27,402 nucleotides of DNA from the NCBI GenBank assembly GCA_030603445.1, contig JAUVXU010000017.1, positions 1 to 27,402 of the forward strand, read 5' to 3'. Position 1 is the stretch's first letter, and each line of letters starts with the position of its first letter. The notes beneath the pieces are model-generated. The model ran no database searches, had not been told where the DNA came from, and saw nothing but the letters and a program-made list of their open reading frames with translations. The position numbers and the translations under genes are program-made. Shown in pieces: positions 11,291 through 13,713 of this stretch. This DNA comes from Methanomicrobia archaeon (lineage in GTDB: Archaea; Methanobacteriota_B; Thermococci; Methanofastidiosales; NM3).

Positions 11291-11302
11291 ATGGGTGATG
11301 AT

Positions 11303-12388
11303 GTGGCGTTATTTGGTAAAAGTAATAATGATGTAGAAGAAGAAAAAGAGAAGGTTTCAACCGCCCCAACATATATCGGGGCTATAAAATTAGGCACTGC
11401 GAATTCAAATATTACTGCAGGCGACAAACTCATAGGAACTCGTTCCTTGGTGCGTAGAATATTTAAGTCCACCGCGTACGAAAAGTCTACCAAGGTACCA
11501 GACATTATTGTTGGTTCCACAGCTTTAGAGTATGATGGGCTAGGAGAGCTTATTTATATTGTGAACAAAGGCGTTGTGAAAACAAAAGATGCATATTATC
11601 TTGTGGAATATCTTTTCGATCATGCGGAAAAGTTCAACAATACAGACTCAAAGAATCTCAAAATATTTGTAGCTACGCCTTCCATTGCTGCAGAGAATCA
11701 AAAGGAAGAGCTTGAAAAGCTATTAAAAGACTTTGTTTCTGAGGTAAAAATAATAAGTGAACCATTGGGTTCGTTGATATACCATAATTGGGTAACAGGC
11801 GTTTGTGCAGATATAGGCCATGGCACTACAGATTTTACTCTCATACATCAAAAGCTAGCTGTAAAAGATGAGATGGGGGATGTTGTAGCTGATACAATCC
11901 CAAATGGTGGGCGCGATATAGACTTTGCTATCCAGCAGAATATTAAGAGAAAATATGGCGTAGATGTTCCGCTTGAGGAATGCATGCGAATCAAAGAAGA
12001 TTATTGCGGCCCTTATTATGAGTATGTTGTGTTGGGAAAAGAGCTTCCAGAGCTTACTGAAGACATAATTACTGAGGAAGGTACTGCAGAGTGCATAATC
12101 ATTGATAAGGACATAATATCTTCAGTAGACGTTATTATAGATCATATTGCCCGAAAGATAGTTGAGCTTATTGGTAAGTCCCCATTTGCCGTAAGAAAAA
12201 ATATGTATAAAGCAATACTTCTTAATGGCGGTATATCTTCAATACGTGGCCTTGACATAACAGTTCGAAAACACATTGCCGGATATGCGAATCTTGACCT
12301 TGATGCCGTAAATGTAGTTCTTTCACAAGATCCTCTGCATTCATCTCTTCTAGGTGCAAAAAAAGCAGCAGAAATAGTCTTTAGATAG
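11303..12388 (+). CDS. MreB-like actin-fold protein with altered phosphate-1 motif
   Basis: The protein has 361 residues from the GTG at 11303 (365 from the ATG at 11291). After a charged, Glu/Lys-rich N-terminal tail, all actin/MreB segments appear in order: AIKLGTANSN (phosphate 1), KGVVKTKDA (connect 1 region), ADIGHGTTDF (phosphate 2), NGGRDIDFAI, LNGGISSIRGLD (adenosine) and DPLHSSLLGA at the end. Pattern and length are closest to MreB. In phosphate 1 the conserved Asp of DLGTAN is Lys, which should disturb Mg-nucleotide chemistry. Polymerisation or a switch role is inference. GGTGA at 11294 stands 4 nt before the GTG, so I prefer that start. A T-rich tract and then a PRC-barrel/coiled-coil gene follow; both may act with it. 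Confidence 0.85.
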   Translation: MALFGKSNNDVEEEKEKVSTAPTYIGAIKLGTANSNITAGDKLIGTRSLVRRIFKSTAYEKSTKVPDIIVGSTALEYDGLGELIYIVNKGVVKTKDAYYLVEYLFDHAEKFNNTDSKNLKIFVATPSIAAENQKEELEKLLKDFVSEVKIISEPLGSLIYHNWVTGVCADIGHGTTDFTLIHQKLAVKDEMGDVVADTIPNGGRDIDFAIQQNIKRKYGVDVPLEECMRIKEDYCGPYYEYVVLGKELPELTEDIITEEGTAECIIIDKDIISSVDVIIDHIARKIVELIGKSPFAVRKNMYKAILLNGGISSIRGLDITVRKHIAGYANLDLDAVNVVLSQDPLHSSLLGAKKAAEIVFR

Positions 12389-12448: not shown

Positions 12449-13030
12449 ATGGATGATAATGCGCTGTATGGGCAATTGTATGGAAAATATGCCGTAGACA
12501 TCGATGGAAAAATACGAGGATATGTGGATAATGTCGATGTTGAGATAAAGGATGGGGAAATTTTCTTTAATCTTGAAATGTACCAATATACACCTTCATA
12601 TAATGTAGGAGTCCTTGATAAGAACAAGTATGGTCCAAAAATAAAGCTTACATTAACTCCAAAAGATATAGTATCTGTCGGAAAGGATTGCATTATAATA
12701 GGATTTGGTAGGATTCCAGATCTCAAGGACATTGAGCGATTCAAGATGGTCATGGTGGAGAATGAGGGCTTGCGCAAACATTACAAAGAATGCCAAGAGG
12801 AGCTTGATGCAGTCACGAATAAGCTTAAAGAAAAAGAAGATGAGTTTTTGGAGCTTCTTGATAGATTGCGCATGCTCAAACGTAAGGAAGATGAGTTTGA
12901 TCTCATAAAAGAAGAGCTTACACGAAAGAATGGCGAGCTTAAGGCGGCTTATGAGTATATGAAAGTTATAGACAAACTAGAGAATAAAGTATCCAAGTTG
13001 CTTCAACAATATGAAGGACAAAAATCATGA
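12449..13030 (+). CDS. PRC-barrel domain plus coiled-coil protein
   Basis: The protein has 193 residues. Residues about 13-86 fit a PRC-barrel: a GKIRGYVDNVDVEIKDGEI strand pair, then LTPKDIVSVGKDCIIIG. Residues about 95-188 are Glu/Lys-rich with heptad spacing and should form a long coiled coil. PRC-barrels are small beta-barrel adaptor domains; archaeal CdpB proteins of this class act in FtsZ/SepF cell division. This protein differs by its coiled coil and its place after an actin-like gene, so a scaffold that links a filament or membrane to RNA or other partners is a reasonable guess (inference). GGTGG stands 9 nt before the ATG. The stop overlaps the next start in ATGA, so it is translationally coupled to the nucleotidyltransferase. 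Confidence 0.78.
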   Translation: MDDNALYGQLYGKYAVDIDGKIRGYVDNVDVEIKDGEIFFNLEMYQYTPSYNVGVLDKNKYGPKIKLTLTPKDIVSVGKDCIIIGFGRIPDLKDIERFKMVMVENEGLRKHYKECQEELDAVTNKLKEKEDEFLELLDRLRMLKRKEDEFDLIKEELTRKNGELKAAYEYMKVIDKLENKVSKLLQQYEGQKS

Positions 13031-13713
13031 AAGAAAAGACGATAGCCTTTCATAGAGAGGATGTCACCTATACGGACGAACATTGGGCATTACTGCAACA
13101 GTTGCGAAAGGAGGCATTTTCTGTTCTTGAAGTTATCGCAATGTACAATCCCGTGGTATATGGGAGCGTGGCACGAGGGGACGTGCACAAAGGAAGTGAT
13201 ATTGATATTTTCGTACCTTATGTGATTTCATCTTATGTATTTGAATTGGCATTAGATTGCTTTGGAATTATGGAAAAAATTATAGCTATGGCCACACCTT
13301 GGCATTTAATCAAGGCACATATCGTACTTTCGAACGGTGTAACTGTGACATTTCCTCTTGTGGATTTTAAAGGATTTGAGAAAGAGTTCTACTATTTCGG
13401 TGGAGCTGTTACTGTAAAAGATATCATAGATGACAGACGTGTTCCAGGTGTTGATAAACGCCTTATGTTAATTCAACCTACCAAAACGGGGCATACCGGG
13501 TCTGAGATAACTGGTAGGGAGGCAAATGTAGCTAAAATAGTTGGTGTTCCAATTGGACTGATACGAGAACGTCAGCAGGTATTAAATAGAAGAAATAAAC
13601 TTGGTAGGACAGGCGTATATTTGTATAGGCATTTGCCACCGGATTCTAACATAGAGTTGGAACTAAAAAAACTTGCAGACAAAGATACAAATATAAAACG
13701 CCGTTATCGCTAG
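13027..13713 (+). CDS. Predicted archaeal nucleotidyltransferase (COG1665-like)
   Basis: The protein has 228 residues. A DNA polymerase beta-type nucleotidyltransferase motif is visible: YGSVARG at 45-51 and GSDIDIFV at 56-63, giving the two metal-binding Asp residues; a third acidic residue is probably in FPLVDF at about 109-114. The C-terminal part (REANVAKIVGVPIGLIRERQ, about 164-183) looks like a helix-turn-helix, followed by a basic tail (KRRYR). It resembles the archaeal predicted nucleotidyltransferases of COG1665. It is not a typical MNT toxin-antitoxin partner: it is longer and no HEPN gene adjoins. It might transfer a nucleotide to a protein, an RNA or a small molecule. It is coupled to the PRC/coiled-coil gene by a 4-bp overlap. 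Confidence 0.75.
   Translation: MKEKTIAFHREDVTYTDEHWALLQQLRKEAFSVLEVIAMYNPVVYGSVARGDVHKGSDIDIFVPYVISSYVFELALDCFGIMEKIIAMATPWHLIKAHIVLSNGVTVTFPLVDFKGFEKEFYYFGGAVTVKDIIDDRRVPGVDKRLMLIQPTKTGHTGSEITGREANVAKIVGVPIGLIRERQQVLNRRNKLGRTGVYLYRHLPPDSNIELELKKLADKDTNIKRRYR

Follow-up and report, generated by a model that had tools for sequence, protein, structure and literature searches.

Gene organization of the actin locus

The window analysed here, a stretch of 27,402 nucleotides, comes from an archaeal genome that we infer to belong to the family Methanofastidiosaceae. The hosts are uncultured methane-producing archaea. An ORF on the forward strand (11291–12388, +) encodes a divergent archaeal actin-fold protein of 365 aa, which matches the Pfam families MreB_Mbl (44.3 bits; cut-off, 27) and Actin (32.1 bits; cut-off, 27). 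The motifs GAIKLGTANSN, ADIGHGTTD, and LNGGISSIRG, named in the original prediction, were all found in this ORF.

The conserved upstream sequence indicates that the real start is probably GTG at 11303 rather than ATG at 11291. A ribosome-binding site, GGTGAT (11294–11299, +), lies 3 bases 5' of this GTG. GTG 11303 was preferred because GGTGRT, 3 bases, and a GTG, TTG, or ATG start are found in all four homologues, each start opening with (A/G)LFGK. With this start, the residue called Lys33 below would be numbered 29. The N-terminal ALFGK motif (11306–11320, +), with LFGK invariant in all four homologues, is followed by a variable acidic linker that is not conserved and that separates it from the actin domain (region 11306–11362). 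By analogy with the N-terminus of some MreBs, the ALFGK N-terminus could serve as a membrane- or partner-binding tag.

The next gene (12449–13030, +) encodes a 193-aa protein that has a coiled coil and whose N-terminal region is rich in beta structure, a description that comes from its sequence and from weak coiled-coil profile matches. It is adjacent to and co-directional with the actin gene in all three Methanofastidiosaceae loci that are long enough, and its product is a candidate partner of the actin. A gene designated OG0000094, which is MreB/DnaK-like, always adjoins a coiled-coil gene in Methanobacteriales and Methanopyrales (PMC11915815). Compared by description, the two loci share the coiled-coil neighbour and differ in gene order, and by this analogy the two pairings may be of the same kind. 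The N-terminal region of the 193-aa protein is also weakly PRC-barrel-like (Pfam E 0.07–0.64, below cut-off). Proteins with a PRC barrel have a known place in archaeal cell division. Longer, distant homologues of the coiled-coil gene occur in a sister family, f4 (L074, 5572–6411; L079, 1235–2068), where they adjoin a Hel308-like helicase, CBS-domain genes, and a 72-aa membrane-protein-like ORF. An actin gene was looked for beside these f4 homologues and is absent.

A minimal nucleotidyltransferase gene (13027–13713, +) overlaps the coiled-coil gene by 4 bases. It was considered as a functional partner of the actin and dropped, since almost every genome of the phylum (104 of 115) contains it, whether or not the actin is there. 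It is probably a housekeeping gene. From translations of the ORFs flanking the actin gene in the window and in loci L005 and L006, the surroundings consist of acyl-CoA synthetase-like, coiled-coil, nucleotidyltransferase, and glycine-cleavage genes, and no mreC or mreD was found among these flanking ORFs.

Relationship to known actin families

All four members of the family match Pfam MreB_Mbl above its gathering score. Among the NCBIfam models, MamK (NF040964) gave the top score (70.5 bits, E 1.2e-19), under its cut-off of 400, followed by BeeR (61.9 of 530 bits). The two mreB models (39.2 of 293 and 33 of 365.75) and crenactin (13.4 of 630 bits) were also below their cut-offs, as were Pfam Salactin (17.1 of 27.1 bits) and Volactin (26 of 35 bits). 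These profile scores describe a divergent archaeal actin of MamK/BeeR/MreB-like type that reaches the cut-off of no named subfamily.

MamK, the magnetosome actin, is the closest relative by both profile and fold, with other actins within about 1 to 2 Z units in the structural comparison. In its mode of action, the protein would most resemble filaments of the MamK/MreB type. MamK has Asp in the phosphate-1 segment, however, whereas the window protein has Lys and scores far under the 400-bit cut-off. The likeness to MreB/Mbl (PF06723) lies in the Pfam score, the profile-profile probability (P 98.6, see below), and the full E...T-x-D motif. It differs from MreB/Mbl in carrying Lys for the phosphate-1 Asp, in sharing only about 21–24% identity, and in lacking MreC/MreD neighbours. 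Salactin and volactin, from haloarchaea, are archaeal as well, and both match the protein weakly. Published phylogeny relates salactin to MamK (PMC10746226).

A structure model of usable quality required sequences beyond the family. With the four close homologues alone, AlphaFold gave a pLDDT of 40, which is unusable. With ten sequences (the four homologues and six MreBs from viral contigs), it gave a pLDDT of 64 and a pTM of 0.65, with weak confidence around the phosphate-1 loop and residues 36–102. The fold of this model resembles MamK, actin, and MreB along the entire protein. Its comparison with MamK (PDB 5ljw) gave Z 23.7 and an rmsd of 3.0 over 277 residues, and that with actin gave a Z of about 22; over residues 21–365, the structural Z to MamK and actin is 22–24, as for an actin fold.

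A lysine replaces the phosphate-1 aspartate

The phosphate-1 Asp normally holds the water ligands of the Mg-nucleotide. The corresponding segment of the window protein, GAIKLGTANS (residues 30–39; 11378–11407, +), is unchanged in all four homologues and aligns without a gap to the MreB segment IDLGTAN. The replacing residue is Lys33, with codon AAA (11387–11389, +).

Lys33 occupies the Asp column in three alignments, namely a joint one made with MAFFT, an HH-suite profile-profile alignment, and a structural alignment with the AlphaFold model. The HH-suite alignment of the family with 14 MreBs covers residues 25–362 (P 98.6, E 1.3e-15) and has no gap at IKLGTAN/IDLGTAN. The structural alignment begins with model residue 27 at actin residue 5 and model residue 26 at MamK residue 10, so that residue 33, if the alignment is ungapped, falls on actin residue 11 and MamK residue 17. 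The model agrees with the sequence alignment, with low confidence at the loop and too weakly for side chains at phosphate 1 to be read; it is not fully independent of the alignment, since MreBs were already in its input.

The phosphate-1 column holds Asp in 14 of 14 sampled MreBs and Lys in 4 of 4 family members. Of these 14 MreBs, 11 carry the catalytic Glu and 11 the phosphate-2 Asp, which makes the residue replaced here the best conserved of the three in this sample. The actin/Hsp70 catalytic signature, which has Asp in the phosphate-1 segment, is not found in this family. The DnaK proteins of the same genomes, that of the window's genome included, retain GIDLGTT.

A compensating acidic residue was sought in the family and MreB alignments, and none was found at the metal site. 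Asp45, the nearest invariant acid, was considered, but it lies after the phosphate-1 hairpin and off the metal-ligand strand in the alignment. A further charge reversal was suspected at Lys93, which corresponds to ScMreB5 Asp70 and actin His73, but its column varies among MreBs (D in 7 of 14, with R and N elsewhere), and it was judged not special.

Each of the four homologues is from a different assembly, and the other three proteins are 79–82% identical to that of the window; the fixation of Lys is thus read from four sequences at about 80% identity. Across the four members, the Lys codon is AAA, AAG, AAA, and AAG. Pairwise dN is 0.13–0.16; most dS values exceed what the method can estimate, synonymous sites being for the most part saturated. 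Because the codon varies while the residue is constant, dN is low, and dS is mostly saturated, Lys33 is, on this comparative evidence, maintained by purifying selection. These results bear out the original prediction that Lys stands in place of the phosphate-1 Asp, and they show it to be fixed among close homologues. Both ways in which it could have failed, namely homologues with Asp and Lys only here, or an alignment placing an Asp at the metal site, are contradicted by the four sequences and by the lack of an aligned neighbouring acid. A sequencing error, drift, or a misalignment hiding an Asp at the metal site is practically negligible as an explanation: four independent assemblies agree, the alignment is ungapped at the motif and consistent with the structure, and the Lys in every homologue already refutes it.

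The remaining active site and its likely activity

The other catalytic positions are retained. Glu157 (11759–11761, +) aligns with the catalytic Glu140 of Caulobacter MreB (CcMreB; actin Gln137). In the phosphate-2 segment DIGHGTTD (11810–11833, +), Asp174 corresponds to CcMreB D162 and Thr179-x-Asp181 to CcMreB T167-x-E169; His177 occupies a position where a small residue, Gly or Ala, is usual. The adenosine motif LNGGISSIRG (12221–12250, +) contains the invariant Gly313-Gly314. The family alignment shows that Glu157, Asp174, Thr179-x-Asp181, and Gly313-Gly314 are all retained, and by this reading the phosphate-1 Asp is the sole loss in the catalytic site.

In MreB, the Glu (CcMreB E140) positions the attacking water, and T167-x-E169 has been proposed to activate it (PMC9597168). 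The Mg water shell in ScMreB5 is held by Asp12, Glu134, and Asp156, and the ScMreB5 D12A mutant has a kobs of 0.02 per min compared to 0.15 per min (PMC9195046). According to published work, conservation of the phosphate-1 Asp across the actin superfamily is absolute; cells with Caulobacter MreB D16G survive, although the protein mislocalises to the poles, and yeast actin D11A is lethal (PMC3137890).

The reading we favour, at about even confidence, is that of a cytoskeletal actin that would bind nucleotide, polymerise, and hydrolyse slowly, with Lys33 partly replacing the Mg water shell. ATP or ADP would still be bound in the cleft; this binding is expected because selection has preserved the other residues that contact nucleotide or take part in catalysis. 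The Lys33 amine would lie near the beta and gamma phosphates and Asp174, partly supplying the charge that Mg ligation would otherwise provide, and hydrolysis would be slow. The lethality of D11A counts against this reading, since losing the phosphate-1 Asp can evidently abolish function altogether. A related and rather unlikely form is a Mg-free or nearly Mg-free nucleotide switch, in which Lys would stand for the metal-ligating Asp and assembly would follow the binding of a nucleotide or phosphate ligand with little or no hydrolysis. The earlier suggestion that the protein binds nucleotide without normal hydrolysis is partly supported, as it fits the intact adenosine motif, phosphate 2, and Glu/Thr/Asp residues together with the published mutants.

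The retention of the remaining catalytic residues, including the complete E...T-x-[D/E] motif, would also suit an ordinary, fully active ATPase, in which Asp174 and Glu157 suffice for Mg and Lys33 contacts the phosphates like the basic residue in the phosphate-1 loop of actin. We consider this unlikely: D12A alone lowers the activity of ScMreB5 about sevenfold (PMC9195046), a positive charge next to the metal should be worse, and the phosphate-1 Asp varies least of all catalytic positions in the MreB sample. By homology, Lys33 also stands opposite two retained metal-site acids, and a salt bridge with Asp174 and Glu157 could fill the metal site and lock the cleft, giving a pseudo-actin that binds no nucleotide and acts as a constitutive scaffold. 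Such a protein should have let its adenosine motif and Thr-x-Asp pair drift, yet both are kept in all four members, which makes this explanation improbable. His177 and Lys33 together make the phosphate end of the cleft more basic, and the cleft might hold a different phosphorylated ligand without Mg, such as another nucleotide, polyphosphate, or a cofactor. Nothing direct favours this; the adenosine GG motif is intact and the base site has no sequence sign of change, so that a different ligand is very improbable and the earlier suggestion that the protein binds something else found no supporting evidence.

The slowly hydrolysing actin favoured here has its nearest precedent, by analogy, in Spiroplasma MreB3, likewise a natural actin homologue with a crippled site and a Lys in it. 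Spiroplasma MreB3 has lost the hydrolysis motif, polymerises upon nucleotide binding, and releases phosphate very slowly (PMC9597168). The two differ in what is missing, as MreB3 lacks the motif Glu and Thr, whereas the window protein keeps both and lacks the metal-site Asp.

Distribution and possible cellular role

Among the 115 genomes of the phylum that were examined, the gene is confined to the window's own family, where four of five genomes have it. The fifth genome of the family is 77% complete and lacks the actin and the next two genes, one of which is near universal. An assembly gap is likely there, because of this incompleteness and because the near-universal neighbour is missing too. 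Other MreB_Mbl matches in the order were examined and set aside: they are longer frames, and of 17 such loci inspected, 13 show the DnaK motif GIDLGTTNSC. No relatives of the actin were found in a search of plasmids, phages, and viral contigs. The Lys may be older than Methanofastidiosaceae, the sampling having covered this one phylum.

Each of the 21 genomes of the order carries FtsZ-family genes, and 18 of the 21 carry SepF. With FtsZ-type genes and SepF available, cell division probably does not rely on the actin. A third, weaker-scoring tubulin/FtsZ-family gene was also observed in the window's genus (G000:C5:62019-62504; also G001:C22 and G002:C8). A limited literature search found no paper on the cytoskeleton of Methanofastidiosa.

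Under the favoured reading, nucleotide binding or the coiled-coil partner would control assembly to a greater degree than rapid hydrolysis would. The resulting filaments would be stable and may have a role in cell shape or segregation alongside FtsZ/SepF division. The family represents a natural case in which the phosphate-1 Asp is replaced by a basic residue while the hydrolysis motif is kept, uncoupling metal ligation from water activation, and it provides a clean way to ask if filaments of the actin type require any hydrolysis.
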